A stretch of DNA of 64,000 nt from Actinomycetota bacterium (lineage in GTDB: Bacteria; Actinomycetota; Thermoleophilia; RBG-16-64-13). The DNA is taken from NCBI GenBank assembly GCA_018830645.1, contig JAHJSA010000035.1:1-64000 (forward strand), read 5' to 3'. Made by a program: the position numbers and the translations under genes. The notes under the pieces are model-generated. The model was not told where the DNA came from. It did no database searches and saw only the letters and a list, made by a program, of their open reading frames with translations. The stretch's first letter is position 1, and every line of letters begins with the position of its first letter. This document shows positions 8,135 to 63,882 of this stretch, one piece after another.

Positions 8135-9103
8135 ATGGAGGAGAAAAAGATGGTGGAGGAAGGATCGCTCTTGACCTCGGCGGTGAGCCCGCCGCTCCGA
8201 TGCCTCTCCCCGATGCTACCTGCTGTGGTACCCGATCTGGACCTCCGTGAAAACTTGAATCTGGACGGCTTTGACATAGCATTAGAGACTCAGCTGGGCA
8301 CCCTGGTAATAGGCGACTGCCTTGAAGTCCTTGGCCATTTGCCCGACGATAGCCTTGACTTGGTCGTGACGTCGCCGCCGTATGACCGGCAGCCCAAGTA
8401 CGGCAATGGCGAGAAGTACGGCAGCGATTGGTATCACGGCTTCTTCCTGCAAGTGACCGCCGAGATCCTCCGAGTACTGAAACCGCACGGGTCGTTCCTG
8501 CTGAACTACCGCTCCAAGCGTACCGCAGGAGGCGAAAGGGGCACCCTGCAGTACGAGCTGGTCTTTCTGCTCCGCGATCAGGGGTTCCATTTCGCTGAGG
8601 ATTTCATCTGGGGCAAACCTTCGCCGCCACCAGGGCGATTCAACCGCTATCTCAAGGACGCCGTGGAGTACTGCTTCCAGTTCACGAAGACGGACTCCTG
8701 GCAGTTCTTTCCCGAGCACTGCCTCAGGCCCGCCCGGTGGGATCGCAAAGACGTCGAACGGCGTAAGAAACTGGCACACAACTTTGTACGAGCCAACGCT
8801 CCCTCCGGCCAGGGCAGGAAGCGCGTCCAAGCCGGCCCGGACCTCGTACGACCTTCGACGCTGCTCTACGTCGAACCCGAGTTCAAGCCAAACCCAACTC
8901 GGCATCCAGCGCGCTTCCCGGTTGAGTTGCCAAGCTTCTTCATTAATCTACTTTCGCTGCCCGGGCAGATAGTCTTCGATCCCTTCGCCGGAACAGGCAC
9001 TACCGCGGTCGCGGCCGAGCAGCTCGGACGCCGCTGGCTTGCCAGCGAAATCGACGCTAGATACGCTGCGGCCCTCCCAAGCCGTCTACACCGAGCAGGG
9101 TAG
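8135..9103 (+). CDS. Type II DNA methyltransferase, beta-class amino-methyltransferase
   Basis: This encodes 322 residues. It transfers a methyl group from SAM to an exocyclic amino group of DNA, most likely N4-cytosine judging by TSPPY at residues 79-83 (N6-adenine enzymes more often have DPPY). The SAM-binding FDPFAGTGTTAVAAEQLGR box lies near residue 280, after the catalytic motif, which defines the beta class (M.PvuII-like order). An upstream ATG at 8150 is an alternative start. It ends directly before the predicted endonuclease gene, so this is a complete restriction-modification pair. The recognition site cannot be read from sequence. Confidence 0.88.
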   Translation: MEEKKMVEEGSLLTSAVSPPLRCLSPMLPAVVPDLDLRENLNLDGFDIALETQLGTLVIGDCLEVLGHLPDDSLDLVVTSPPYDRQPKYGNGEKYGSDWYHGFFLQVTAEILRVLKPHGSFLLNYRSKRTAGGERGTLQYELVFLLRDQGFHFAEDFIWGKPSPPPGRFNRYLKDAVEYCFQFTKTDSWQFFPEHCLRPARWDRKDVERRKKLAHNFVRANAPSGQGRKRVQAGPDLVRPSTLLYVEPEFKPNPTRHPARFPVELPSFFINLLSLPGQIVFDPFAGTGTTAVAAEQLGRRWLASEIDARYAAALPSRLHRAG

Positions 9104-10234
9104 TTGGACGCGGCACAACAGATCGACGCAACGGCGCGTGAAGTAGCCTCGGCGACGAGCTGGGACGAGCGAGTGGCTCTCATCAGACGGGTCCCCGAGT
9201 CCTTTGGCACTGGCCAACTGGCGGCAGTCTATGCAGCAATTGCTGAGCGAGCCTACGCTCCCGACTTTGGAGCCGACTTCGGGTACGTCCATTGGCCGCG
9301 GGAATACGAACTGGACGGGGTAATTGAGTCGTACAACATCGCGTTGCGAGCGACCAGTGGTTTCCAGGCCGTGTCTCCAGCCGACCTCGCTCGCGTGCTC
9401 CAAACGAACCCGCGGACCCTCCGGATCTTCCGGCTCCTGTTGGGATTCACCACCCAAGAGTTCGCGGCGGCCACAGTCATGGTGGCAAGAGGCCATGGTG
9501 GACCTGGGCTGGCCAACACGCGGATCAAGAGCATGGAAACCGGACACGCAGCATCGCCTCAGCAGACGGAGTTGGCGGCACTGACCATAGACCACACGAT
9601 GACCGGGAGTCTCTTCTCGGAGACGGACAGCGAGACCATCCGATCCAAGATCACGAAGCCGGACACCGCACTTGGCTGGGCGAGCGTCCAACACTACGCG
9701 GTGGCTGGTGTCCCGCTGCCCATGTTCCTCCACCAACGGCTGTACGGTGGCGCCTTCCGCCAGATCCTTGATGCGACAAGCACTAGACGGGGTGACCTCA
9801 TCGAGGACGAAGTTGAATCGAGGTTCGTCAACACCGGGATTCTCCATGTACGCACGGGCTCCGCAAACCAAAGCGAGATTGAAGCTCGATTCGGGCTGAC
9901 GGTGAGACCCGCTCCCGATTTCGTCGTCTACGACGTGGCCGGGCATCTACAGGCGCTCCTTGAATGCAAAGGCGCCAACGACGGGGGTACGGCGCGGGAC
10001 AAGGCCAGCCGATTCCGCGCGCTGAGAGGCGAGGCCACTCGACTTGGCGGAGTGCCTCTCTTCGCCGTGCTGGCAGGCCTCGGATGGCGACGAACCGCCG
10101 ACGCTTTGGGTCCCGTAGTGCGCGACACCGATGGCCGCGTGTTCACCCCATCCAACTTGGACGCCATGCTCGCGTGCCGACCGTTCCCGGAGCTTGCTGG
10201 CTCTGCAATGGCCGGGATTGTAGACAGCGGATAG
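9104..10234 (+). CDS. Predicted type II restriction endonuclease (PD-ExK)
   Basis: This encodes 376 residues from a TTG that follows the methyltransferase stop without a gap. The C-terminal part contains PDFVVYDVAGHLQALLECKG: P271-D272 and E287-C-K289, spaced like the catalytic PD...(D/E)xK motif, with a downstream KASRFRALRGEATRLGG helix. The N-terminal half includes a PADLARVLQTNPRTLRIFRL segment that resembles a helix-turn-helix, perhaps for self-regulation or DNA binding. I recognise no named family. Its role follows from the motif and tight coupling to the methyltransferase. The 250 bp after it (10235-10484) hold no convincing gene. Confidence 0.72.
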   Translation: MDAAQQIDATAREVASATSWDERVALIRRVPESFGTGQLAAVYAAIAERAYAPDFGADFGYVHWPREYELDGVIESYNIALRATSGFQAVSPADLARVLQTNPRTLRIFRLLLGFTTQEFAAATVMVARGHGGPGLANTRIKSMETGHAASPQQTELAALTIDHTMTGSLFSETDSETIRSKITKPDTALGWASVQHYAVAGVPLPMFLHQRLYGGAFRQILDATSTRRGDLIEDEVESRFVNTGILHVRTGSANQSEIEARFGLTVRPAPDFVVYDVAGHLQALLECKGANDGGTARDKASRFRALRGEATRLGGVPLFAVLAGLGWRRTADALGPVVRDTDGRVFTPSNLDAMLACRPFPELAGSAMAGIVDSG

Positions 10235-49189: not shown

Positions 49190-50131
49190 CTACAGCGCCT
49201 CGATTACCTCCACCCCCATCTGTCGCGCCTCGATGGCCAGGAATGAGGTGTTGTGGACGGTTTCATCCACATCCAAAGCGAACACCGCGTCGATTGACCG
49301 GAGCAGCTCCGGCATGGCCCAGGGCGGCACGAACGGCTCTAGGGGCAGGACTCGCCCGAGGTGTTCGTACATCCATTGCTTGAAATCGGACTCCCCCACA
49401 CCCTGGGCGATCAGCCGCAGTGAGACCTCCGAAGGGTCCTGGGCGGCGTACCAGTCGATGATCCGGTCCAACCCCTTGCGGCGCCAGTGATAGTTGATCT
49501 TGCCGATGTATGCATACACGCGCGGGCCGCCATGCTGCCTGCGTTCCGCCGGGACAAAGGCCGATTCGTTCACCTCGTAGACCGGGCGGCGCTCAGTCTT
49601 GGCTCCAAGGGAGGAAAGAACCGCCTCATGGTGTTCGTCGGTGATCACCCGCTCGGCATCGACAAGCACCGCGCGCAGCAATGTGCTGTAGGCAGGATGG
49701 TTCAGGAACTTGGCGATGTCGCTTCCACCGTGGCGGACAACGTGAGGCACGCCCGTGAGCCGCGACGCGAGGTAGCCCGCGATCCCATACGGCACCAGGT
49801 AGCCGGATTCGATCACGTCCCAACGCCCCTCGCCGAGCACGCCGACCAGCTGGTTCAGCAACCGTTCGAGATAGTCCGGGCTGTGCGGCACATGCCAGGG
49901 CGGCGGGCCGGAGACGTCGCGCAGGCGGAGGCCTCGCTCCCGGACAAGCCAACTCAGGTGGTCATCGCACGAGCCGATCCGGTACTCGGCTTCGACACTG
50001 CCGGCGTTCGTCACCAGCGCGACCTCGTGCCCCCCGTCCAACAGCTCTCGCGTACGCCAGTAGGTGCGCGTGGCGATGCCGCCTTCGATCGGAGGGAACT
50101 TACTGACGATACATGTCCGCACGGATGCCAC
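49190..50131 (-). CDS. Short GT4-type glycosyltransferase, last gene of the RiPP-like operon
   Basis: This encodes 313 residues; ATG 50131 overlaps the end of the asnB-like gene by 32 bp, and GTG 50122 is an alternative. The N-terminal acceptor domain starts CIVSKFPPIEGGIATRTYWR, a GT-B/GT4 motif. The donor half has VYAYIGKINYHWRRKGLDRI (G-K-x-x-x-x-R-K-G) and DETVHNTSFLAIEARQMGVE, where a GT4 enzyme would normally show the E-(x)7-E motif and then EALACGTPVV plus 50-80 more residues. The protein stops right at IEAL. It could be a natural short form or a truncated enzyme. A role in glycosylating the operon's peptide product is an inference from position. Confidence 0.8.
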   Translation of the reverse strand: MASVRTCIVSKFPPIEGGIATRTYWRTRELLDGGHEVALVTNAGSVEAEYRIGSCDDHLSWLVRERGLRLRDVSGPPPWHVPHSPDYLERLLNQLVGVLGEGRWDVIESGYLVPYGIAGYLASRLTGVPHVVRHGGSDIAKFLNHPAYSTLLRAVLVDAERVITDEHHEAVLSSLGAKTERRPVYEVNESAFVPAERRQHGGPRVYAYIGKINYHWRRKGLDRIIDWYAAQDPSEVSLRLIAQGVGESDFKQWMYEHLGRVLPLEPFVPPWAMPELLRSIDAVFALDVDETVHNTSFLAIEARQMGVEVIEAL

Positions 50132-51833
50132 TTTCGTAGAAGTCGCGAACGTCGAAGCCCTCTGGAAGGCTGCCTCGGTTCTCGACGAAGATGTAATGGA
50201 AGAGATCGAACATGATCGCGTCGAGCGGAGACTTCACCCATCTCTGGAAAGGGTGAGCGGCAACCGCGGCGTCGGGGACCAGCCTGCCCGCCAGGGTCTC
50301 CAGCCGGCCCGCGATCCCCTGCACGGCCGCGGGCATGCCGGACTTCTTCCGATCGATCAGATGTGTGAGGCCGTACCGCGCAAAGAGGGGCCTGGCCGCC
50401 TCTTTGAGCACGCGCTTGGTCTCGCTCCCGCGCACCTTCAGCTCGATGGGAAGCGACAACGCCAAGTCTACAAGGTCGTCGTGCAGGTACGCCGGCCGTA
50501 CCTCGAATCCGAACGCCGAGCACGAGCGGTCGACGCTCCACAGGTGATAGTTGGAGAGTCCACCCCGGATCAGGAAATCGAACAGGTTGCGTCGATATAC
50601 GGTCTCGTCTTCCGGCTGCGGGAACAGGGCGTCGACCTGTTGTGCGACGGCGGTAGGTGAGCCAATGGCATTCAACCTCGCGCGGATCCGGTCCGAGAAC
50701 CCGAGGGGGTGCGTATAGGACCAGTAGTAGCCCCCGAAGAGCTCATCGGCCCCCTCACCGGAGAAGGCCACGCGTACGTACTCAGAGATTCGGCGCGAGA
50801 GCAGCTGAAAGGCCATGCCCCCGTGGACATCGAACACGCCGCCGGCGATGACGTTCTCATAGTGCCTCACGAACACCGGCAACTCACGCAGGTAGTCATC
50901 CAGATCGACGCGGAATTCGTGGTGGTCCGCACCGATCGCCTCAGCGACCGCCCGTGCCGCGAGGAGGTCGGGCGCATCATACGAGTCCGCCAGGGTGAAC
51001 GTGAGAAGCCGTTCCGCCTGTGACTCGGCGGCGATCATCGCCAGCAGGGAGGAGTCCACGCCCCCCGAGAGATAGAAGCCTTTCGGGAGAGCGTCATGCT
51101 CCAGCGTCTGCCGAAGTGCGGCCCAGAGGCACTCGCGCACGGCATCCGCCGCCTCGGAGAGCGAGAAGTCGCCATCATCCCGCGGAGGCGCCGGCCGCCA
51201 ATACCGGTGGGTCACAATGCGTCCGCGCACTATCTCCACGACGCAGCCGGGCGGCACCTGCTTGATGGCCCCGAACGGCGTCCGCTCTGGCGAGCTGATG
51301 TAGCCAAACACCGCGGTCTCGTCGAGCGCCTGCGCGTCAAGCGACGTCGGCACAGCGGGGTGGGCCAGGACCGCCTTGATTTCGGACCCGAACACGACCT
51401 CGTCCCCCACCACGGCATAGAACAGCGGCTTGATGCCGAGTCTGTCGCGCGCCAGAAGGGTAGACTCCCCATCCAGCGCCACGACCGCGAACATGCCGTT
51501 CAAGCGCGACAGGCCCCGCCACCCTCCGCGGGACAGCAATTGCCCGATGAGATCTGATTCGGGATCAAGCGGGTCCAGGACACCCAGACCCATCTCCCCC
51601 GCAAGTAGTGGGTAGTTGTAGATCTCGCCGTTGAGAAGGACGAGTGTACTACCATCCCACCTGGGCACGGGAGCCGTAGGAGACCCCACGATAGCGAGGC
51701 GGCAGCCGCCGACAGACGCCTCAGAGATGCTCAGGATGTCGAACGAGTCCGGGCCGCGATGACTGATGGACGCCAGCATCCGCTTGGCGAGGTTCTCGTC
51801 CACACGGCCCACCACGCCGCAGATGCCGCACAT
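50100..51833 (-). CDS. Asparagine synthetase B-like glutamine amidotransferase
   Basis: This encodes 577 residues. The N-terminal Ntn glutaminase domain is intact: MCGICGVVG with Cys2 as nucleophile, ISHRGPDSFDI, LLNGEIYNYPLLAGE. The ATP-binding synthetase domain has FYLSGGVDSSLLAMIAAES (PPi loop near residue 256) and VAFSGEGADELFGGYYWSYT. Enzymes of this family make asparagine, amidate carboxylates, or in peptide pathways close rings (the lasso C protein) or form beta-lactams. Its ATG overlaps the stop of the toroid-protein gene (ATGA) and it sits in an operon with a peptide precursor, which makes modification of the precursor more likely than routine asparagine synthesis. Confidence 0.88.
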   Translation of the reverse strand: MCGICGVVGRVDENLAKRMLASISHRGPDSFDILSISEASVGGCRLAIVGSPTAPVPRWDGSTLVLLNGEIYNYPLLAGEMGLGVLDPLDPESDLIGQLLSRGGWRGLSRLNGMFAVVALDGESTLLARDRLGIKPLFYAVVGDEVVFGSEIKAVLAHPAVPTSLDAQALDETAVFGYISSPERTPFGAIKQVPPGCVVEIVRGRIVTHRYWRPAPPRDDGDFSLSEAADAVRECLWAALRQTLEHDALPKGFYLSGGVDSSLLAMIAAESQAERLLTFTLADSYDAPDLLAARAVAEAIGADHHEFRVDLDDYLRELPVFVRHYENVIAGGVFDVHGGMAFQLLSRRISEYVRVAFSGEGADELFGGYYWSYTHPLGFSDRIRARLNAIGSPTAVAQQVDALFPQPEDETVYRRNLFDFLIRGGLSNYHLWSVDRSCSAFGFEVRPAYLHDDLVDLALSLPIELKVRGSETKRVLKEAARPLFARYGLTHLIDRKKSGMPAAVQGIAGRLETLAGRLVPDAAVAAHPFQRWVKSPLDAIMFDLFHYIFVENRGSLPEGFDVRDFYESGIRADMYRQ

Positions 51834-52624
51834 CAGGACCCTTCGAGGAGGTTGGCGGCCTCCGTCAGGCCCCAGTAGGCGTAGGCGGTGCCCTCATCGA
51901 TGAAGTGGTAGGGCCAGTAGCCGGATTCGAGCTGGGTGTCGATGAGCCACTGCACCGCCCGTTCGACCACACCGCGGTCGGCCAGTTCGGGGAAGCGGCA
52001 GAGTCCGGCGAGGCAGACCCCCGTGCTCCAGGGGTCGCTGCCGATTGGGTGGCCGCGCCAGGGGCCGAAACCACCGTCATCGTTCGGCTGGGAGTGGAGG
52101 TAGTCGAAGGTACGGAGAACCAAATCCGACGGTCGGCGATCGGAGTCCTGGCAGGACAGGAAGAAGCCGCCCTTATAGGTGACTTGTAAGTCTGATTGAA
52201 GATCGGCGACCCACAAATGGTCGAGAACGCACCAGTCATTGGATTCACTTATCATGTTTCCAAGAAACCTGAGCACGACAGCCGTGATCGGAATCCTCGG
52301 CTGGTCACGCTCATTCCGACCCCAGCCACGACCGGCTGCTCGATGTGCAGCCAGCCATGCAAGCGCTCGTTTGGTAGAGGTTTCGACGGGCTGCTGCCCC
52401 TGTAGCAGGATAGCGCACCAGAGTGAATCCTCCATGTCGACCCAGCCACCATCCTTGCGCTGGTTGGCACTCACAAGCCTGGCCGTGCCGGGCGATTCGG
52501 AAGGGCACAACACCTCGATCCGAGCGAGTCTGCCTGCATCGCCTGTGCGACGACCAAGGCCCTCTAGACCTCCATGAAGCACAACGGCCGCACGATCAAC
52601 CGCGTTGCCCGGACAGATGGTCAT
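51833..52624 (-). CDS. Alpha/alpha-toroid (prenyltransferase/squalene-cyclase-repeat) protein
   Basis: This encodes 263 residues; ATG 52622-52624 overlaps the TGA of the large upstream gene. QW-like repeats are visible: LVSANQRKDGGWVDMEDSLW, LHSQPNDDGGFGPWRGHPIG and WLIDTQLESGYWPYHFIDEG, with WSTGVCLAGLCRFPELADRG helices between. The C-terminus ends TAYAYWGLTEAANLLEGS. It lacks the DxDD or DxDxTA motif of terpene cyclases, so I do not think it makes terpenes. Similar toroids act as peptide-binding or isomerase-like scaffolds. In this operon it may bind the precursor or be an enzyme of unknown type. Confidence 0.75.
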   Translation of the reverse strand: MTICPGNAVDRAAVVLHGGLEGLGRRTGDAGRLARIEVLCPSESPGTARLVSANQRKDGGWVDMEDSLWCAILLQGQQPVETSTKRALAWLAAHRAAGRGWGRNERDQPRIPITAVVLRFLGNMISESNDWCVLDHLWVADLQSDLQVTYKGGFFLSCQDSDRRPSDLVLRTFDYLHSQPNDDGGFGPWRGHPIGSDPWSTGVCLAGLCRFPELADRGVVERAVQWLIDTQLESGYWPYHFIDEGTAYAYWGLTEAANLLEGS

Positions 52625-55600
52625 TGTTCCAGGATCAATCTCATGAGCGGCTGCTGCTTCTTGCGGAAGATTGCATGCCTTTGGTCGTAAGAGAGAGAGG
52701 CACGGCAAGCGGGACACACGTAGAAGATCTGCTCGTTGTCACCAAATACCTCGTGCTCGAACTCGGTTGTAGCCCAGGGGTAGAACCTCTCACAACATGA
52801 GCAGCGAACGCTCCTGTCAACGGGGTCGACCAACAACCCAACGTCACCGGCAAGAAAACGCACCTGGTCGAAGTACGCGTCCAGTGCCTCAGCGAGCATG
52901 ACGCGAATACCTCCGCTCAGCTCTTCTCCGAACTCCGAGAGCACAACCAGCTTCTCACCACGGTGGCGACACTGCGCATCGAGTTTCTCCGTGAACCACA
53001 CTACGCCAGGAAGGAAGAGGTGATTCGTTTTCGCCAGCACGGAGTCAAGCTCCCCTCGATTGAGGAGATCAAGCAGACGATGACTCCGTTCGGAGATGGA
53101 TCCAAGGTGCAGACAGACAACGTCACACCGCTCGTAGGCATCCCCGATCTGCTCGTCCCATGCCGTGTCCGAAGGGAAGCCAACGAGTGCCTTCGTGTCA
53201 GCGCCAGAAATGACCTCCACGAGCATCCCCAGGGAATCATGCCGCAGACTCCGATACGCGGAAATGTCCTGGTGAATGGCTCGAGTTGCCGTTAGCTTCA
53301 GTTTCTCGGAACCTTCCTGGATCCGGGCTAGAGTGTGATTCGTTAGGGGGAACGTGGACCAGTTTCCTTCGGGTTCCACTACCCGGCTGGGTCTGAGGAC
53401 TACCGTATCGCGGATGACGTCGCTCGAGTCGACAATCGACTGCAGGTGGTCGAGTGCGCCATGCGATACCACCAGCTCAATGCGCACCTTCTTTTCTCCG
53501 TTGTTCTTCTTGTTGAGTTTGTCAACCTCGATCAGAAGGTTGTGCATAGCCTCGAAATCGGCCAGATGGTCAGGGTGGTCGTGCGTCACGGCGACGCCTG
53601 TCAAATCCCCAATACTGTAGCCTTGCGCCAGCAAGTTCTTTACAAAACCGTAGCCCGGATCGATAGCCAAACCAATGTGCCGGGAATTCCCTGTTCTTGT
53701 CGATCCGGTGATAAGGGCTGCAGCGCACTCTCGGCAGTACTTGGCGTCGGGTTCTCGCGGCTGCCTGCACTTTGGACACTCGGGAGGCTTTGGAAACCAC
53801 GTCATGAGATACCCGCCACCTTCGGAGATCGCCGCGGCAGGAGTGAAAGAGTTCCACCGCTGCAGGACGGCAAGCCCCCAGCCAGATGGGGTCCTAGGGC
53901 GGTTCCCTTCCACTAGTCGAGCGTCAATTGCCCTTTGGTTCCGGGTTACAGTCTCGTCACAGTAGTGAACAACCATCCGATCGTCGTCCCGCGGCGGATG
54001 TGGCAGCGTGAGAGCCGGATTGCTTATGGCTGCCCTCACAAGCGAGCGGCAAAGTACCCCTTTGCCTGGTTTTGTGCACTCGTCTCGTCCCCTAAGTTTG
54101 CAGAAACGGCACCGCAACTTCCTCATCGCCCGCTCGAGAGGGGTGGACGCCGTCGACTCGACGAAGTGCTCCCAGACGAAATCGTCCAGGGCGCCTCTGC
54201 CTTTCTGGCCCCCATGAGCGGACGGCAAGGAACGACCATTCACTCGACGCGCTTTGTTCCTAATGAGGTGAGTATCGTACTCAGTAAGAACGCCGTCTTG
54301 CTTTTGAAGACGACAGAGAATATTGCCAAGACGCGAGTAGCGTTCTCCTGCAATCCTCGAGAGGCCATCTATAGAATCGCCGACTCCCGAGGCCGCCAAG
54401 CCGGCCTTCTGCAGACTCTTCTTCAGTGCGGCGGCACTTTCCCACATGTCCCACAAGCACTTCTCAGTGCGTCTGGCGATTTCCGGCCGATGAGCTCTGT
54501 TGGCTCGGTCTTCAAGAAGGTCTAGGGTCGCCTGGAAGAACGTGTCGGCGTCCCTCCATCCAATGGGGAGGCGTAGCTCGAGGTATCCCCGTGTGATCTC
54601 CACGCTGCGGCGGACCTGCTGATTCAAGGCATCCGCACCGCCGGGCCGCTCCCGAGTAGTTTCCACCCTGTCGGAGACCCGCTTCAGGTTGTCGGCTGCA
54701 CCACCGAGTCCACCGGCCCACTCCAGCAAGACTTGGTCAAACTCCTCGCGGTCGCGAATGGCCGACTCGGCCCTCTTGGCCAGTACAGTGGGCAAATGCC
54801 GAGGGCACCTCCTCAGTGACTCCGCTTCCACCGAATCAAACTGCGACTCGATGCGCCGGCGACCTTTCAATTCGGTCGGCAGCTGGAGCGGCTCAGCGGG
54901 CTCTCGGTCCTGGTCAGCGAGGCAGCGGTGTCTGACCCGAAGCCGGCACTGGCGGCGGTACTGCGTATCGCGGTGCGTATCCGGCTCGGGACGACTACCG
55001 TGATTGTTCAGGCAATGGAGAGCCTCCGTGGAACGCTGCAGCTTGTTCAGAGCATCGGCCATCTGAATAACGGAAGCATGGCCGATGTAGGCACGCAACA
55101 GCTCCTTTCCATCTTCCCACCGGAAGCAGTAGAGCCAATCGTCGGCGCCTCGCGCCGGCTCGAATGCATACATGTCATCAGGAACAGTCCCGTTGATCAG
55201 CCCACAATCTCGAGAGATACGCTCGAAGTTCTTGGCGGCCTGCTCGTAGTTGTCGCCGAAACCCACGTGCATGTATCCCATGGCCTTGTTGTAAATGGCG
55301 ACCTGCTCGTATAACGACTGCCCGATTCGGTCCTTCTCGCGAACTCCGAAGGCCTCAAATGCCTTCTGCAGCAGTTTCAGCGCGTCTTCTGCGTGCGCTA
55401 TTTGGTGGTATCCGTGATAGCAGGACGAAGCCTCGATGAGGCACAGGACACGCAGCACGAGGTCGGTGTACTGGGAAGGCAAGTCGGAGCCCTGACCCTC
55501 GGATGCGGCCCCAAGCTCCCGCTTGACCTGTTCGGCGTCTTCATGGTTGCGCACGAGCCCTGGGCTGGACGGTGCCGTCTTGAGCAAGGATTCCGCCAGT

Positions 55601-56040
55601 TCATCCAGTAGTGCGTCGATTGCCGTGCCCCCTCGGCGCATCAGCTCGGACCTCATGAGCTTCGCCAACAGCAGGACTCGCCAAGCCTCCTCGGCATGAT
55701 CCCAGACCTTCGTCAAGGTATCTTGCTGAAAATCATTGACTAGCGCACCTAAGGACTCGGGCCATTCAGCAGGTGGTTCCGCAACGTGCAGTGACTTGAC
55801 TTGGTCCAGCGTGGCGCACTTGAGATCGTCCAATGTCCAGCCAAGGGTTTCTTCCCAAGGCCGTCGTTCCCCGGGCAACTTGCATCCAACAGGTCGGGCG
55901 TCCAAGTCTTCGAAGATCTTGACTTGCTTGCCGTCGGCCCCCACGAATTGGCAGGGTCCGTCGTTATACAACTCCTCATCGATCTGAATGTCATAGAGGA
56001 TCGCGAACGTCTCGAGCGCGCGGAATGTCTTCCAGTCCAC
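52621..56040 (-). CDS. Large helical-repeat / zinc-ribbon / metallo-beta-lactamase-fold fusion protein
   Basis: This encodes 1139 residues from a GTG 22 bp after the precursor stop. Residues 1 to about 360 are helical and partly TPR-like (SLYEQVAIYNKAMGYMHVGF, DALNKLQRSTEALHCLNN). Residues 360-690 are charged helices, ending in a four-cysteine segment CRFCKLRGRDEC...C. A metallo-beta-lactamase fold starts near 735 (ISEGGGYLMTWF) and is interrupted by a zinc ribbon (C755-P-K-C758 ... CREC), then resumes with AIDPGYGFVKNLL and the metal site THDHPDH at 819-825. A C-terminal CSCCERF...CPAC ribbon follows. I know no family with this order. A hydrolase, peptide or nucleic-acid processing role is possible. 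Confidence 0.8.
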   Translation of the reverse strand: MDWKTFRALETFAILYDIQIDEELYNDGPCQFVGADGKQVKIFEDLDARPVGCKLPGERRPWEETLGWTLDDLKCATLDQVKSLHVAEPPAEWPESLGALVNDFQQDTLTKVWDHAEEAWRVLLLAKLMRSELMRRGGTAIDALLDELAESLLKTAPSSPGLVRNHEDAEQVKRELGAASEGQGSDLPSQYTDLVLRVLCLIEASSCYHGYHQIAHAEDALKLLQKAFEAFGVREKDRIGQSLYEQVAIYNKAMGYMHVGFGDNYEQAAKNFERISRDCGLINGTVPDDMYAFEPARGADDWLYCFRWEDGKELLRAYIGHASVIQMADALNKLQRSTEALHCLNNHGSRPEPDTHRDTQYRRQCRLRVRHRCLADQDREPAEPLQLPTELKGRRRIESQFDSVEAESLRRCPRHLPTVLAKRAESAIRDREEFDQVLLEWAGGLGGAADNLKRVSDRVETTRERPGGADALNQQVRRSVEITRGYLELRLPIGWRDADTFFQATLDLLEDRANRAHRPEIARRTEKCLWDMWESAAALKKSLQKAGLAASGVGDSIDGLSRIAGERYSRLGNILCRLQKQDGVLTEYDTHLIRNKARRVNGRSLPSAHGGQKGRGALDDFVWEHFVESTASTPLERAMRKLRCRFCKLRGRDECTKPGKGVLCRSLVRAAISNPALTLPHPPRDDDRMVVHYCDETVTRNQRAIDARLVEGNRPRTPSGWGLAVLQRWNSFTPAAAISEGGGYLMTWFPKPPECPKCRQPREPDAKYCRECAAALITGSTRTGNSRHIGLAIDPGYGFVKNLLAQGYSIGDLTGVAVTHDHPDHLADFEAMHNLLIEVDKLNKKNNGEKKVRIELVVSHGALDHLQSIVDSSDVIRDTVVLRPSRVVEPEGNWSTFPLTNHTLARIQEGSEKLKLTATRAIHQDISAYRSLRHDSLGMLVEVISGADTKALVGFPSDTAWDEQIGDAYERCDVVCLHLGSISERSHRLLDLLNRGELDSVLAKTNHLFLPGVVWFTEKLDAQCRHRGEKLVVLSEFGEELSGGIRVMLAEALDAYFDQVRFLAGDVGLLVDPVDRSVRCSCCERFYPWATTEFEHEVFGDNEQIFYVCPACRASLSYDQRHAIFRKKQQPLMRLILEQ

Positions 56041-56061: not shown

Positions 56062-56202
56062 CTATCGGCAGCCGTGGCAGGACGAGCACTGCCGGCAGGC
56101 GAGCTCCTTGCTCACGCCCTCGATGCCCCGCAGCGGGAACTCCATTCCCACTTGCTTCTTGATCGCGGGTTTCTCGTAGGTTTTCGTCTTCTTCTCAGTC
56201 AT
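56062..56202 (-). CDS. RiPP precursor peptide with CxxCxxCxxC core (46 aa)
   Basis: This 46-residue peptide starts MTEKKTKTYEKPAIKK and ends ELACRQCSSCHGCR before a TAG. The ATG at 56200-56202 has GGGAGGAG nine bases upstream. The leader contains Y9-x-x-P12-x-I14-x4-G19, much like the YxxPxLxxxG motif that RRE proteins grip in lasso-peptide leaders. The last 12 residues carry Cys36, Cys39, Cys42 and Cys45, one every third residue, the only cysteines in the peptide. It follows the PqqD-like gene by 3 bp. I predict a radical-SAM-modified (thioether- or otherwise crosslinked) product. Alternative: a small metal-binding protein, but the leader motif and neighbours argue against it. Confidence 0.8.
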   Translation of the reverse strand: MTEKKTKTYEKPAIKKQVGMEFPLRGIEGVSKELACRQCSSCHGCR

Positions 56203-56205
56203 GCC

Positions 56206-56469
56206 TCACTCCTCCCTCGTGACAAGGCCTTCGTCTACACACGTAGTCAGCAGTTCCTCCACGTCGACTTCCGTCCGGCCCGAGGTTATCCCATACTCCC
56301 CAGCCAAATGGTGCGCGATCGACACCTGGTCGTCTCCCCGCGCAAGCGCCGCCAGCGTCTCGTAAGCGGTCTCGTTCAGTTCATAGTGTTCACCGCTGTC
56401 AAGCCGGAACGCCCAACAGGAACCGTCGGGTCCTCGTCGCAGCCGAACCTGCGGACTCAAGCGGAACAC
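56206..56469 (-). CDS. PqqD-like RiPP recognition element (RRE) protein
   Basis: This encodes 87 residues, from a GTG (56467-56469) inside the last codons of the radical SAM gene. The fold is clear: MFRLSPQVRLRRGPDGSCW, AFRLDSGEHYELNETAYETL and the C-terminal winged-helix DVEELLTTCVDEGLVTREE, as in PqqD and lasso B1 proteins. These hold the leader peptide and present the core to the modifying enzyme. Direct overlap with the maturase gene and the adjacent precursor make its role in this pathway nearly certain. Confidence 0.88.
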   Translation of the reverse strand: MFRLSPQVRLRRGPDGSCWAFRLDSGEHYELNETAYETLAALARGDDQVSIAHHLAGEYGITSGRTEVDVEELLTTCVDEGLVTREE

Positions 56470-57656: not shown

Positions 57657-60600
57657 TTACTCCCGCTCGAACCCGTGGGTCTCGAACTTCAGCGTGCCGC
57701 AGTTCTCGGTGACCGTGCGCACCACGTTGTCCGGCGCCCCCGACGGGAGTTCGGCGTGGATCTCCACGGTCACATCGACCGTCGCCCCCTGGAGCAGCCC
57801 GAGGTGTTGCAGCACAGCTTCTGAGATCTGGTCGAAGTCCCGTCCCGGGCGGAGGGAGTCGAGCTTCTTCGAAGCGAAGAACCGGCGAATCCGCGGCCGG
57901 TCGGGGACTGCGCTGTCGGCCGCGCCCGTAGCTCCGCCCGCGATGTCTGGCGTGGCCGCAGCCTCACCTGCGCCACCTGCCCCACCAGCGTCGCCGGCTC
58001 CGGCCGCCGCAGTGGAGTCGGGTGCGACCGCCCGCTGCCGCTCGGCGTCGAGTTGGGCCTTGGCCACCTCGGCCTTGACCACGAGGCCGTCCAGGGTCAC
58101 GCTGCCGTGCTCCCCGGCCTTGAGGCCCCGGTAGCGGCCGGCAGCCTCGTCGTAGGCCTCGGCGTAGGCGAATGAGTCCTGGAGCCAGGACAGCTGGGCG
58201 ATGCCCGATTGGACGGCCCGCAAGAGCACACTGCTCTCGGTAAGACGCGGGAGATAGAGGTACTGGGTGAAGTCCTCCCAGAGCTGCCGAATGCTCACGT
58301 GGTCGCCGCGCCACAGGGGGATGCGGTCGAGCTCGTAGCGCAGAGCGACCCCACCGTAGTCGGTGACGAGGTTCCCATCGTTCTTGAGGCGGCGGCCGGC
58401 GCGATCGGCCGGGGCCTCCGTGCCCGTGAGACGGGTGGTGAGCCACTCGGCCTCCCCCAAGAGGTCCCCCTGGCTGGGCACAAGTAGCCATGAGTACGTC
58501 TCGTTCAGGCGGGCGTCGATGGTCTCGTTCCATTGGGAGCCCTTGGTCTGGGCTTGGTTACGCTGGAAGGCGTCCAGCCCCAGTTCGTCACACTCCCCCA
58601 GAATGGACGACCAGGCCAGATAGTTGGCCACGGCCTCGCGGAGCTCCCCGAGGCGGTCCTGGTCGGCCGCCAGGAAGACGAGCGCGTTCCGGCGGCGGCG
58701 GGGACCCTCGCCTCGGGTCGCAAGTATCTGCGACGCATGCACACGGGCCGGACTCTCCGCGGTCTTCCCCGAATGGCCGTGGACCGGATCGAGAATGACC
58801 AGCCGGGCCTCAGGCTCGTCGGGCACCTCGGCACTCCCGGTGGGGGCGGGGTGCACGGCGTAGAAGTCTCCGCGGCGGCGGTCGGCGCGCAGACGCCTCA
58901 CCACCTCATCGTCGGCCCGGGAAAGGAACTGCTCGGCCCGGTCGCGCGCAAGGCGGGCCACGCTCGGCTGGGGGCTGAACCAGTAGCGGCTGCCGTCGAC
59001 ATAGAGGTAGGTGGCCTGGTCGGTCAGGCGGCGAAGCGCGTCGCCGAAGTGGGCCGGGGTCTCCCCGGGCTGCACGCAACCCAGGGTAATGCTCTTGTCG
59101 TCGAGGCCGCGGTGGGCGGCCTTCAAGGTCGGGGCCGAGCCCAAGTAGACGGTACGGGCCACACGCCGGGTGGCCGAATAGCGCTTGAGGGCGGGGTTGT
59201 CCCGGTCGATGAGGACGGGCGTCGAGTCGTCGCCGTCCACATCCTTCTGGATAACGGGCACCCAGTTGTCCTCCAGGTAGCGGGTAAGCTCGAACTCGAC
59301 CGCCTGAGCGTCGATAGGCACCGTCCCCGGCATGATGAGGAGGTTTCCATCGTCCCGGTCCCACAGCTCGTGGATGACCGCCGCCATGAGCCTCAGGACC
59401 CCGCGGGTTCGCTGGAACCTCTCGAGGGTCGACCAGTCCTCGTACAGGCGATCAAAGAGCTCCGGATGAATAGGATAGGCGCTCCGAAGGCGTCGCTCGT
59501 ACGTTCCCTCCTTGCAGTCGGAGGGGAAGCTCTGATGCTGGGAGCGGTAGAGGTCGGCGAAGGCTCCCACCACCGCATCCCGGGCGGTGTGATCCATGTT
59601 CTCTTCGAATAGGCGCCGGCGCACGATCTCGAAGCCCTCCTCCTTGGAGGCGGGCCGCCACGGCGAGTGCATGCGACCGATGACCTGCTTCAAGCGCTGC
59701 AGGGCGGCCTGCCCCCCTTCGCCCCCAATTTCGATGGAGGAGGGGATGCCTTCGTCCTCTTTGAGCACGTCGGAGGCGGGGATGCTGACCACCACGAGGA
59801 CTCCCGGCACCGCCCGGGCGGCTTCGGTCAGGGTTTGGGCGAAGGTGAAGTGGGCGTCAAAGCTCCCACCGGCCAGGCGATCATCCTTCCCGTAGAGCTG
59901 CCGGGCGTAGGCCACCCACTCATCAATAAGGATGAGGCAGGGAGCATGGCGTTTGAAGAGCTCGTTGAGTGCGCTCCCGGGATTCGTGCCCGTGGTATCC
60001 GCCTGCTGCACCAGGGCGTAGCCTTCCGCTCCCCCGAGCTGCCAGGCGATCTCTCCCCAGAGGGTGTTCGCGACTGTGCCGTCCGGCTTCTGCTGCGGCT
60101 GGCCGGGGCTCAAGGACGTCCCCACAATGACCGCCCGCGCCGTTGGCGGAACCTCGGTCACGCCGGCTGCGCTCAAGATCTCCTCGACTCCGGGGAGGTC
60201 GGCCGCCGAGGTCCCCGAGCACAGGTGGTAGAGGGCCAGAAGAGAGTGGGTCTTCCCACCCCCGAAGTTCGTTTGAAGCTCGACCACCGGGTCGCCCCCG
60301 GTGCCGGCGAGACGCCTCAGGGCTTCGGTCAAGAGCTGCCGGAGGCCGGCGGTGATGAAGGTGCGGCGGAAGAACTCCCGAGGGTCCCGGTACTCATCGG
60401 TGCCCTCGCCCCGGTGGACCTGGGCAAGATCGGCGGCGAACTCCGCCTGTTGATAGCGACCGGAGGCGACGTCGGGGTGAGGAGTCACCACCTGCCGCCA
60501 CGGGAGAAGGCCGGCCTTCGGCTGACCGAGGATGGTCTCGGAGGCCTGAACTTTGCGGGCGGCCTGCCGCGCCTGTTCTTCGTAGCGCTGGCGATTCAGC

Positions 60601-61004
60601 TCCTGCTTTTGACGCTCGACCTCAATGGCTCCCTCTGAGGAGACGGCCGTGAGCAGACGCTGGACGGTGTCCAGGGCACGATAGGCGTCGTCAGCCGAGA
60701 AGGGCTTCTGGTGCGCCCAATCGTTGCGGACGGTGCGGAGCTCGCTGACCCAGTTGCGCTCCGAGTGCCCCAGGGTACGCTTGAAAACCTCGTTCCACTG
60801 CCCCCACATCACCTTGAGCAGGTTCTGAACGTCCCCGAGTTGCTCCTTCCTGGCGCTGACCCCAACCGCCTCCAGACTCTCGGCGGCTGCGTACAGCCAA
60901 CGGTCGCCGTAGACGGCGGTCATCTCCTGCTCGACGAAGGGGAGGAGGCCCTGAGCGAGGAGTTCGAGCGCTCTTCCCACCCGCTCCCGGTTGCTGACGG
61001 CCAT
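57657..61004 (-). CDS. HEPN (Swt1-like)-DUF499 P-loop ATPase, phage-defence type
   Basis: This encodes 1115 residues. The N-terminal 120 residues form a Swt1-type HEPN domain with the RNDWAH motif (R93-x4-H98), the catalytic pattern of HEPN ribonucleases. The DUF499 AAA-like ATPase follows: Walker A NFGGGKTH at 246-253 and Walker B LILIDEW at 357-363, then the arginine-rich EMWRRRLF-like FEIVRRRLFEENMDH region. The C-terminal 120 residues contain an alanine/glycine linker and a small alpha/beta domain. DUF499 proteins travel with DUF1156 methyltransferases and helicases in anti-phage loci. It starts 10 bp after the methyltransferase gene stop. Confidence 0.88.
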   Translation of the reverse strand: MAVSNRERVGRALELLAQGLLPFVEQEMTAVYGDRWLYAAAESLEAVGVSARKEQLGDVQNLLKVMWGQWNEVFKRTLGHSERNWVSELRTVRNDWAHQKPFSADDAYRALDTVQRLLTAVSSEGAIEVERQKQELNRQRYEEQARQAARKVQASETILGQPKAGLLPWRQVVTPHPDVASGRYQQAEFAADLAQVHRGEGTDEYRDPREFFRRTFITAGLRQLLTEALRRLAGTGGDPVVELQTNFGGGKTHSLLALYHLCSGTSAADLPGVEEILSAAGVTEVPPTARAVIVGTSLSPGQPQQKPDGTVANTLWGEIAWQLGGAEGYALVQQADTTGTNPGSALNELFKRHAPCLILIDEWVAYARQLYGKDDRLAGGSFDAHFTFAQTLTEAARAVPGVLVVVSIPASDVLKEDEGIPSSIEIGGEGGQAALQRLKQVIGRMHSPWRPASKEEGFEIVRRRLFEENMDHTARDAVVGAFADLYRSQHQSFPSDCKEGTYERRLRSAYPIHPELFDRLYEDWSTLERFQRTRGVLRLMAAVIHELWDRDDGNLLIMPGTVPIDAQAVEFELTRYLEDNWVPVIQKDVDGDDSTPVLIDRDNPALKRYSATRRVARTVYLGSAPTLKAAHRGLDDKSITLGCVQPGETPAHFGDALRRLTDQATYLYVDGSRYWFSPQPSVARLARDRAEQFLSRADDEVVRRLRADRRRGDFYAVHPAPTGSAEVPDEPEARLVILDPVHGHSGKTAESPARVHASQILATRGEGPRRRRNALVFLAADQDRLGELREAVANYLAWSSILGECDELGLDAFQRNQAQTKGSQWNETIDARLNETYSWLLVPSQGDLLGEAEWLTTRLTGTEAPADRAGRRLKNDGNLVTDYGGVALRYELDRIPLWRGDHVSIRQLWEDFTQYLYLPRLTESSVLLRAVQSGIAQLSWLQDSFAYAEAYDEAAGRYRGLKAGEHGSVTLDGLVVKAEVAKAQLDAERQRAVAPDSTAAAGAGDAGGAGGAGEAAATPDIAGGATGAADSAVPDRPRIRRFFASKKLDSLRPGRDFDQISEAVLQHLGLLQGATVDVTVEIHAELPSGAPDNVVRTVTENCGTLKFETHGFERE

Positions 61005-61014
61005 GCGCTACCTC

Positions 61015-63852
61015 CTAAAAGAGGGTCTCTTCGGTCGTCTTCACTTCGCGGCCTTGGGCGAGGCGCGCGATCTCCGGCCACGCCACCACCAGGGAGTTGT
61101 AGGCAAGGGCCTCCTGCGCCCACTTCTTGCGCTCACAGGTGGTGTAGAGGCGGTAGGCGAGATCCCGGGCCGCCTCGCCCAGGGAGCCCACTTTGCGGAG
61201 GAGCGTCGCGGCTCCGAGATCACCCTCGCGCTCGAGGGCGCGGATGAGGTGCTGGGTCACCTCCCAGACGGTGAGACGGCGGTCGCTCACCGGGTCCCAG
61301 TCCTCGGGAAGCTCAGTGCGGGTAAGGAGTCTGACCTTGCCGCGGCCGGATTGCACGATGCCCGCCTGCATGAGCCCCGCCACGGAGCTGTTCTTCGCCT
61401 TGGACAGGGTCTCGGCGAGACCGAACTCCTTCTCCTCCAGGCCGAATTGATCAAACCAGGCAATGGCCCACCGCGTATCGGCATCGTATTCGCCTTCTTG
61501 TTCGGTCAGAACCTCGTCGAGCGACTGATTGATGAGGGCCAAAGCAGTCCGAACACGCATGGCGGAACCATCGGGTTCGAGGACCTTCGCGTAGCGGGAG
61601 AAGACAGCCATCCCGGGACCGATGGTGGCCTGCGCCAGGTCTACGGGGGCGATGTTGCCGTGCTGGAGGCTTCGCAATGCCTCTGGGAGTTCACGCTTGA
61701 GCGCACCGACGAACTCCTTTCGTGTGGCGAGGGGCGCGTCGGCGTGTCGTGGGCGACAGACGAGGACGATGGAGGAGGCGAGGGCGTTTGTGCCACCCGC
61801 GATCATGCGGTTCGAAAGCTCACTGCGCATCGGCCAGGTGCCGTCGATGGTGAACCCGGCGCTCACGAGCCCTCCGAGCATGGTTTCCCAGCCGGTGGAG
61901 GCCAGACCGGTGTGCTGACCGTTGCCGTCGTCATCACTTTCTGCCTGCTTGAAGGCGTAGTACACGGTTAGGGGGAAGCCCGGGTGCTGAGCGTCTCGCA
62001 TGCGCGCGAAGGCCTGACCCAACCCACGCTCGAAGAATCTTTCGGCCTCCTTCTTGTCCCCGCCGAATCGATACGGCGTGGCCACGAGTTCTTGCGCCTT
62101 TGGGACGAGGAGTGTGCTGAAGAGGTCTGGGTAGACGTTGCCCAACGAGCGACGCAGCCAGACGTAGAAGAAGTCAGAGAGGTCGGCGTAGCCGATGTTG
62201 TCGTAGTAAGGAGGGTCGGTCGAAACAAGGTGCGGCTCATCGGCCACATGCGCAGTCGCCTCATGTTGCAGAGCGTGACTGGAATGACCGCACGATTGCG
62301 CCTGCCGCTCTCCCATGGCAGTGCGCCCGAATACAACTGAACTCCCCAAGCTCTCCATGCACTCGGCCACCCACACGCACCCGTTTCGGAACGAGCCCGT
62401 CGCGTCATGAATAGGGTTCAGCTCTGTGTAATCCCAAGACATGGGCAAGGCCTGGCGAGCGAAAGTCGAACGGGCCGAGTCTCGCTGGGGAAACCATCTG
62501 CACAATGTGGTTGCGTAGTCGGCGAGCTTGCTCAGGGCGAACCCCAAGTATGTAGCCACCGCGTCCGCGTACGCCGGCGCACCCGCGCCGCCATCGTTCA
62601 AACCGACGCCATCACTCGCCAGCCCGGCCGCCAGGGCATCCTTCAGCACAAATTCTCGTGCTTCCCCGACCAGGTCGCTGAAGGTGGTGAGCGCCACCAG
62701 CTGGCGGGGGGTGAAAAGGTGAGCATGCTTGGTCATGCCGTAGGCTTGGACGCGGAAGCCCAGTGCTTGTTCAGGCAGGTCGGTGTTCGGGACGCCGACA
62801 GGAAAAGGCACATGGGCCACGAGTTCTTGCGTCTCGTCTGGCGGCAGATAGACGCGCTCACGCTGCCCCTCGGCCACGATCGCCATCAGTCTCGCCCTCA
62901 TCCGCCCGGCCCGGCCCTCCGCCCGCACATGACTGAACGGCACCGGAGAGTCGCACACGATGCAGCGTGCGCCTCGGCGATTCACGGTCCCCTCGCGCGG
63001 CACCCCCTCCCCCATGCGCACCTCGAAGCGCACCGTCTTCGCAGCCTGATCCACGATGGGCTCCACCCAGGCCTGCTTGCTCTTCTTGGTGGAGAGCGCG
63101 AAGGAGCGCACCAAAGGCATCTCGGCCCCGCAGGCCGGGTTCGGACACTTCACCGTCCGCGCCCAGAGCCAGGCGATGACTGTGGCCTCACCACCGCCGT
63201 ACTCCTTGGGCAGCGAGACCTTGGGGTAGAGGTGGCCGATGCGCTTCTCGGCCTCATCCCGCATCCATTGCCCGTAGTAGCGGACATCGTCGGCCAACCC
63301 CTGCGCGCCTCGCCACCCGGCGTCCACGAGCTTATTGTCCTTCGACGGGTGAACCGGGGGACGGTTTGCGAACTTGGGCGGGATCTCGATCAAGGCCTTT
63401 GTGATGAGCACCGCCACGGGGTTCAGGTCGCTCCCGTGCGCTTCGAGGCCGAGGCGCTGGGCTTCCAGGGGGATGGATCCTCCCCCGCAGAACGGGTCGA
63501 GCACCGGAGGGGGATTCCCGTCGCACGACTTCATGATCTCCGCGCGGGCCTGGGCGAGCACGCTCTCGTTGTTCGAGTTCTCCCACTTGACGAGCTCCTC
63601 GATGAGACGGAACAGGCGCTGCCGTTCCTTCTCCTGGGCCTCTTCGGTGGGAAATTCCTCGGGACGTGAGGAAGGATCATCCACGAGGGAGGCGAAAAGC
63701 ACGGCCCTGCAAGTAGCCAGCGGCCGCCGGGCCCACCAGAGATGAAGGGTGGATGGGTGGCCGTGGCGGATGGACTTCTCCCGGGCCGATTCGCGGTTGA
63801 TGGCTTCCAGCGGGAGAGAGACTTCGATCAACTTCTTCTTGTGGTCAGCCAT
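61015..63852 (-). CDS. DUF1156 DNA adenine/cytosine methyltransferase, phage-defence type
   Basis: This encodes 945 residues from ATG 63850-63852, after AGGGAG; GTG 63858 is also in frame. The N-terminal DUF1156 block (IEVSLPLEAINRESAREKSI, HPSTLHLWWARRPLATCRA) is diagnostic. The SAM-binding motif DPFCGGGSIPLEAQRLG is at 119-135 and the catalytic DPPY at 546-549 (STDPPYYDNIGYADLSDFFY). A zinc-ribbon-like insert is visible (CPNPACG, CIVCDSPVPF). It modifies exocyclic amines in host DNA, so the partner ATPase and nuclease proteins can discriminate phage DNA. The pairing with DUF499 is typical of loci annotated as anti-phage-associated. Confidence 0.9.
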   Translation of the reverse strand: MADHKKKLIEVSLPLEAINRESAREKSIRHGHPSTLHLWWARRPLATCRAVLFASLVDDPSSRPEEFPTEEAQEKERQRLFRLIEELVKWENSNNESVLAQARAEIMKSCDGNPPPVLDPFCGGGSIPLEAQRLGLEAHGSDLNPVAVLITKALIEIPPKFANRPPVHPSKDNKLVDAGWRGAQGLADDVRYYGQWMRDEAEKRIGHLYPKVSLPKEYGGGEATVIAWLWARTVKCPNPACGAEMPLVRSFALSTKKSKQAWVEPIVDQAAKTVRFEVRMGEGVPREGTVNRRGARCIVCDSPVPFSHVRAEGRAGRMRARLMAIVAEGQRERVYLPPDETQELVAHVPFPVGVPNTDLPEQALGFRVQAYGMTKHAHLFTPRQLVALTTFSDLVGEAREFVLKDALAAGLASDGVGLNDGGAGAPAYADAVATYLGFALSKLADYATTLCRWFPQRDSARSTFARQALPMSWDYTELNPIHDATGSFRNGCVWVAECMESLGSSVVFGRTAMGERQAQSCGHSSHALQHEATAHVADEPHLVSTDPPYYDNIGYADLSDFFYVWLRRSLGNVYPDLFSTLLVPKAQELVATPYRFGGDKKEAERFFERGLGQAFARMRDAQHPGFPLTVYYAFKQAESDDDGNGQHTGLASTGWETMLGGLVSAGFTIDGTWPMRSELSNRMIAGGTNALASSIVLVCRPRHADAPLATRKEFVGALKRELPEALRSLQHGNIAPVDLAQATIGPGMAVFSRYAKVLEPDGSAMRVRTALALINQSLDEVLTEQEGEYDADTRWAIAWFDQFGLEEKEFGLAETLSKAKNSSVAGLMQAGIVQSGRGKVRLLTRTELPEDWDPVSDRRLTVWEVTQHLIRALEREGDLGAATLLRKVGSLGEAARDLAYRLYTTCERKKWAQEALAYNSLVVAWPEIARLAQGREVKTTEETLF

Positions 63853-63882
63853 CCACACTCCCTCGCCCGTGCGTCGCTGCGC

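Follow-up and report, generated by a model that had tools for sequence, protein, structure and literature searches.

A probable RiPP precursor gene with a cysteine at every third core residue in a conserved radical SAM/PqqD cassette of an Actinomycetota bacterium

The window analyzed here, a 64-kb stretch of DNA from an Actinomycetota bacterium, carries a short peptide gene which, on the evidence of its codons, is under strong selection, and whose product is very probably a RiPP precursor, the predicted substrate of an adjacent radical SAM (rSAM)/PqqD pair. Judged by sequence, the system is best read as a new rSAM/PqqD RiPP family with a cysteine at every third residue of the core; the periodicity of the cysteines is not in itself new, because systems with a cysteine at every fifth residue and the ACGX systems exist. 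The gene is part of a cassette in the order rSAM/SPASM enzyme, PqqD-like protein, peptide, large solenoid plus metallo-beta-lactamase (MBL) protein, toroid protein, asparagine-synthase-type amidotransferase, and GT4 glycosyltransferase (Table 1). The sequence-only reading had noticed the peptide in the gap between pqqD and the large gene, but missed the conserved remainder of the cassette. As a unit, the latter is not named in Pfam, NCBIfam, or PADLOC, and literature searches returned no description of the seven-gene set.

Table 1. Features of the peptide cassette and its upstream neighbour in the window
Feature	Position	Strand	Evidence and remarks
HmaC (57657-61004) and HmaB (61015-63858), Hma anti-phage system	57657..63858	-	Directly upstream of the cassette; HmaA lies past the window (L013:5147-8683)
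rSAM/SPASM maturase, about 343 aa	56457..57488	-	PF04055, PF13186; CX3CX2C and SPASM cysteines; ATG start inferred by alignment
PqqD-like protein (putative discrete RRE), about 87 aa	56206..56469	-	PF05402, 33.5 bits (cut-off 23.4); GTG start inferred by alignment
Shine-Dalgarno-like GGGAGGAG	56209..56216	-	6 nt before the peptide ATG; overlaps the end of the PqqD-like gene
Precursor peptide gene, 46 aa and TAG	56062..56202	-	Under purifying selection; homologues in the corresponding position of 7 other loci
Leader recognition block Y9-EKP-xI-...-M20-x-F22 (YxxPx[IVF]xxxxx[ML]xF)	56137..56178	-	Y9, P12, and F22 kept also in L043
C-terminal core C36-RQ-C39-SS-C42-HG-C45-R46 (CxQCSxCHxCR-COOH)	56065..56097	-	Invariant Cys, Q38, S40, H43, and R46 (7-sequence alignment)
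1139-aa protein, helical (TPR-like) N-terminal region and C-terminal MBL domain	52621..56040	-	PF12706; zinc-finger-like cysteines
Alpha/alpha-toroid protein (squalene-hopene-cyclase C-terminal-like)	51833..52597	-	PF13243; AlphaFold pLDDT 82; start inferred from alignment
Asparagine-synthase-type amidotransferase	50100..51833	-	PF00733; N-terminal Cys2 and SGGxDSS ATP loop kept
GT4-type glycosyltransferase	49190..50131	-	PF13579; overlaps the amidotransferase gene; homologues in L002, L008, L004, and L026

The peptide gene and its conservation

The frame runs on the minus strand from 56202 to 56062 (46 codons and a TAG), translates as MTEKKTKTYEKPAIKKQVGMEFPLRGIEGVSKELACRQCSSCHGCR, and starts three bases past the stop of the PqqD-like gene (56206). 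It is present where the sequence-only reading had placed it, with the strand left unstated. The gap between the PqqD-like stop and the GTG of the large gene (56040) measures about 165 bp, close to the 160 bp or so given before, and translation confirmed the proposed C-terminal end, ACRQCSSCHGCR, with cysteines at positions 36, 39, 42, and 45. The strong ribosome site claimed for the gene corresponds to the Shine-Dalgarno-like sequence of Table 1, and a similar purine-rich sequence precedes most of the peptide homologues too (AAGGAGGT in L004). A suggested arrangement of all four thiols on one face of a helix fails on geometry for an alpha-helix, as steps of i+3 drift to 0, 300, 240, and 180 degrees and only a 3-10 helix works. 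A promoter scan found none, the number of terminator-like sites was near expectation, and no tRNA lies within the window.

Scanning GTDB genomes with the neighbouring rSAM as query yielded nine loci. A peptide homologue occupies the same place in all five that retain DNA beyond rSAM and PqqD (L002, L003, L008, L004, and L005), and the contigs of the remaining four stop inside or just after the rSAM gene. Profile searches added L014, from the same phylum, and L026, from the phylum of the Deltaproteobacterium, which brings the homologues to seven other loci in Coriobacteriia-like Actinobacteria, Deltaproteobacteria, and others, most of them in metagenome-assembled genomes. The conservation alignment comprised the seven distinct peptide sequences of these eight loci (window included), in which M1, K5, Y9, E10, K11, P12, F22, C36, Q38, C39, S40, C42, H43, C45, and R46 do not vary. 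By mean pairwise identity, the core (89%) stands well above the leader (49%) and the spacer (39%). No frame is interrupted and the cysteine spacing is kept at all eight loci, either of which the sequence-only reading had named as grounds for refutation if otherwise; only the distant L043 shifts the last cysteine. Its further expectation of conserved leader positions was borne out in part: Y9, P12, and the cysteine spacing are retained, position 14 is I, V, or F, and G19 is not conserved, being Lys in five of the seven aligned sequences.

We regard the frame as a selected gene because the differences in its last 12 codons among five close relatives (window, L002, L003, L008, and L014) are all synonymous, with 2-8 synonymous and 0 nonsynonymous changes per pair. 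Over the whole frame, dN/dS ranges from 0.07 to 0.23 for the window pairs with computable dS. Selection and synteny together rule out a chance ORF. Strong matches to the peptide profile (E<1e-8; about 1,380 genome look-ups) all adjoin a cassette-type rSAM, and a peptide homologue follows rSAM and PqqD in every cassette locus having that DNA. Four weak matches (E from 3e-4 to 7e-3) were discarded, three of them (G115, G923, and G1328) having no cassette genes in the stretches examined and the fourth (G735) sitting in a long unrelated frame. No Pfam or NCBIfam peptide model matches the precursor. The gene has the general marks of a RiPP precursor: it is short, combines a conserved leader with a distinct C-terminal core, and is preceded directly by rSAM and PqqD-like genes in its relatives.

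Leader recognition and the lasso-like description

The leader carries Y9-E-K-P12-A-I14. RREs of lasso, PqqD, and StsC (sactipeptide) systems bind W/Y/LxxP-type sequences (PMC12710340), and the LPP leader motif YxxPxVLxHQxIxF (PMC13381572) has the same spacing to its final hydrophobic-x-F as YEKPxIxxQxxMxF has here. The YxxP motif thus serves PqqD/RRE recognition in general and is not specific to lasso peptides (PMC12710340, PMC13381572). What stands of the lasso-like leader proposed earlier is the RRE-binding-type block; the term lasso-like claims too much, as G19 varies and the motif is common to other RiPP leaders. The YxxPx[IV] block links the cassette to the discrete-RRE leaders of lasso, PQQ, StsC, and LPP systems (PMC13381572, PMC12710340), but the likeness is confined to the leader, and none of these systems has the core, toroid, MBL giant, or gene set of the cassette. 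Equivalents of the PqqD-like protein occur in L002, L003, L008, L004, L005, L026, and L043; in L014 the corresponding stretch is interrupted by Ns.

A lasso peptide variant, with the asparagine-synthase-like enzyme as cyclase beside the PqqD-like RRE, would account for the YxxPxI leader and for an RRE and a PF00733 protein in one cassette. It is, however, extremely improbable: the PqqD-like protein reaches 37.3 bits against the lasso RRE model NF033530 (cut-off 70), the cyclase model NF033535 gives 107.5 bits (cut-off 525), the core lacks the Gly1...Asp/Glu7-9 ring pattern, and no B2 transglutaminase-like peptidase was found among the cassette genes scanned or their homologues. An ordinary lasso peptide was rejected on these sub-threshold scores and the missing peptidase. 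Furthermore, since the amidotransferase keeps its Cys2 nucleophile and ATP loop, it should use glutamine; lasso cyclases, by contrast, are not known to do so.

The maturase and related families

The best NCBIfam match of the rSAM is TIGR04340 (ACGX), at 183 bits in the window against a cut-off of 400, and no other named rSAM family scores higher with any of the cassette members tested (183-197 bits across cassettes, 174 in L043). These scores lie under half of the cut-off, however, and the cysteines of the cassette peptide fall at every third residue, whereas the ACGX family name implies a cysteine-repeat peptide target, with a cysteine at every fourth. We found no paper on the ACGX peptide in the literature. 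CefB (NF038107) is likewise an rSAM/SPASM enzyme named for evenly spaced cysteines, here at every fifth residue, but it differs in that spacing and in score (64-84 bits, cut-off 600). The maturase also falls below every cut-off of the StsB, SkfB, AlbA, and PapB families (68 bits against 625 for StsB and 60 against 340 for PapB), although SkfB is the solved structure nearest to it by sequence. Membership in the ACGX, PQQ, mycofactocin, StsB, and PapB families was rejected on scores under the cut-offs.

With the auxiliary-cluster cysteines of its rSAM/SPASM enzyme and a Cys-rich core, the cassette resembles sactipeptide and ranthipeptide systems (AlbA, SkfB, StsB, and PapB), which combine such an enzyme with a Cys-rich precursor. 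It departs from them in its unusual tailoring genes and its near-invariant core, and its thioethers are putative.

The other cassette genes

The full gene order is common to L002, L008, and L004; within the limits of their contigs, L003, L005, and L014 share part of it. In L026 the set is rearranged with the core kept, and a second rSAM gene is present (8289-9392). The large protein is encoded by two adjoining ORFs in L003 and L008. Its MBL motifs (RWNSFTP..GGGY and HDHPDH) include an intact HxHxDH, and the nearest folds of the domain are RNase Z and YhfI, with Apyc1 lower in the list. The structure model is of low confidence overall (pTM 0.43), as is its N-terminal fold, and therefore only the MBL fold was used. 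Two local peculiarities were observed in this protein: a zinc-ribbon-like insert (CPKC...CREC) within the MBL region of the window (53730-53820, minus strand), which the aligned homologues are without, and an additional N-terminal P-loop stretch (GVGCVGKSS) in L026 (4677-8270), lacking in the others. The toroid protein, in its AlphaFold model, resembles class II terpene cyclases.

Distribution and a sister cassette

A more distant locus, L043 from the Bacillota, encodes an rSAM 45% identical to those of L004 and L005, together with PqqD, a toroid, and a four-cysteine peptide ending in ...TYQTPLFEKEDGMNFSEEIWEEFNGGNWCFGCTNCNCN. The leader block YxxPx[IF]xxxxxMxF is kept but the core is not: Y, P, F, and four cysteines remain, and in CFGCTNCNCN the spacing of the last cysteine differs. 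Because L043 keeps the rSAM, PqqD, leader block, and toroid alongside other genes, rSAM-PqqD-peptide-toroid looks, at the sequence level, like a common kernel around which the tailoring genes vary. The sister cassette (L043:1199-10908) also contains a beta-propeller, two further rSAMs, an amidohydrolase, and a methyltransferase, and a dimethylamine methyltransferase gene lies nearby.

The cassette was found in none of 17 other genomes of the source's order. This patchy occurrence and the lower GC content of the MBL region (58-60% versus about 65%) fit a horizontal gain. Plasmid tblastn searches returned only generic rSAMs (<60% identity), and a viral scan gave one fragmentary match. Three rSAM relatives (G1179, G1191, and G1202; 30-35% identical) were set aside as being without toroid and peptide. 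Two unrelated metagenome-assembled contigs (L007:3148 and L009:3450) end at the same homologous rSAM codon, after ...DG in the SPASM region, which is probably a coincidence or an assembly effect.

Proposed maturation of the peptide

In our model, the YEKPxI...MxF leader would be bound by the adjacent PqqD-like RRE, which would present the peptide to the neighbouring rSAM/SPASM enzyme. The latter would modify the CxQCSxCHxCR core, for which oxidative chemistry directed at the cysteines, such as the formation of intramolecular thioethers, is the likeliest route. Thioether chemistry on the core is a tentative assignment, with chances slightly short of even, and the candidate acceptor residues upstream of the cysteine block are not conserved, as the identity of the spacer indicates. 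Tailoring of the product might then follow, by the toroid protein, the amidotransferase (glutamine-dependent), and the GT4 enzyme, and the solenoid-MBL protein may process the product or act together with it. The product is probably a single, fixed molecule kept inside the cell (a cofactor, a metal- or redox-active peptide, or an effector) and not a diversifying bacteriocin, given how little the core differs from phylum to phylum and given that neither an exporter nor a dedicated leader peptidase was seen among the cassette genes, to which the judgement on the exporter applies. A metal-binding peptide, or a precursor broken down to a small cofactor, would agree with the sequence context as well.

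A cofactor-type maturation in the manner of PQQ or mycofactocin, where the peptide is a mere scaffold of which a few C-terminal residues are cross-linked by the rSAM, excised, glycosylated, and amidated into a small redox or metal cofactor for a cellular enzyme, seems rather unlikely. PqqD, the rSAM/SPASM enzyme, the MBL protein, and the glycosyltransferase do resemble those toolkits, and a core near-invariant across phyla, ending exactly at R46-COOH in a cassette without exporter, speaks in the same direction. Yet the rSAM is far under the cut-offs of PqqE (83 bits against 381) and MftC (124 against 265), and is thus assigned to neither equivalog; eleven conserved core residues exceed the need of either cofactor, and no dedicated peptidase or dependent oxidoreductase was found.

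Alternatively, the peptide might remain free of enzymatic cross-links and serve as a small metal- or redox-active protein, in which CxxCxxCxxC would hold a metal or an Fe-S cluster, or CxxCH a heme. The invariance of CxxCxxCxxC and of CSSCH with His43 (CSGCH in L026) agrees with this, but the RRE-type leader and the PqqD and rSAM neighbours indicate a modified substrate, L043 loses CxxCH while keeping the leader, and the peptide has no hydrophobic signal peptide and therefore no cytochrome c-type maturation, all of which makes such a protein decidedly improbable. The rSAM-modified precursor remains our preferred reading.

Defence genes beside the cassette

With HmaA, HmaB, and HmaC all present, a complete Hma system adjoins the RiPP cassette as a neighbour. 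Together with a PDC-M24B-like gene (window 57657-63858 and L013:3884-8683), it is encoded on the same strand as the cassette. Three further rSAM loci have defence neighbours: BrxA, BrxB, BrxC, and PglX (BREX) and an AbiEi gene, divergently beside a family rSAM in L006 (3-9738), where the contig stops 141 bp past the rSAM, BREX-like genes beside an rSAM relative in L010, and a HEC-01A/AbiEii-like ATPase with DUF4276 near an rSAM relative in L005. Separately, a distant MBL-domain homologue (414 aa) in L036 (7339-13846) has as neighbours a DndB/DpdB-like protein, a HATPase, an Mrr-type nuclease, and a weak radical-SAM protein, a set that may represent a so far undescribed operon for DNA modification or defence.

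These neighbours raise the question of whether the cassette itself is an anti-phage or conflict system, in which the peptide would be effector, sensor, or trigger and the solenoid-MBL protein the nuclease or phosphodiesterase arm. The Hma, BREX, and AbiEii-like neighbours, the L036 operon, and the resemblance of the MBL domain to RNase Z and, less closely, Apyc1 point that way, as does the count of defence neighbours, 4 of 9 loci (p about 9e-5) against a rate of 3% in random regions (PMC12715929). However, RiPP clusters generally lie near defence genes, roughly 10% of lanthipeptide clusters having them within 10 kb, a rate against which the same count gives p about 0.007 (PMC12715929), and the nine informative loci are a small, non-random sample chosen by the analyst. 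Moreover, L006 and L010, whose contigs are cut off within the rSAM or directly behind it and whose genomes show no peptide or toroid elsewhere, may not be full cassettes; the flanks of L002, L014, and L043 have no clear defence genes, and those of L004 and L026 gave weak matches only. We therefore treat the association as a suggestive lead and not as a result, and consider an anti-phage role unlikely. The specific picture of a fixed four-cysteine, amidated, and glycosylated intracellular peptide acting unsecreted, with the solenoid-MBL protein, as an effector in defence or stress beside Hma or BREX is quite doubtful.

Significance

With this analysis, a precursor gene and a cassette of seven genes come to light that the curated libraries searched do not list as a unit. 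Unlike in typical bacteriocins, the core is nearly frozen across phyla, and this suggests that its chemical function is conserved. The enzymes brought together here (rSAM, RRE, terpene-cyclase-like toroid, amidotransferase, glycosyltransferase, and solenoid-MBL protein) could reveal new peptide chemistry. Should the defence reading prove true, the cassette would represent a modified peptide that is not secreted but used intracellularly in anti-phage immunity.
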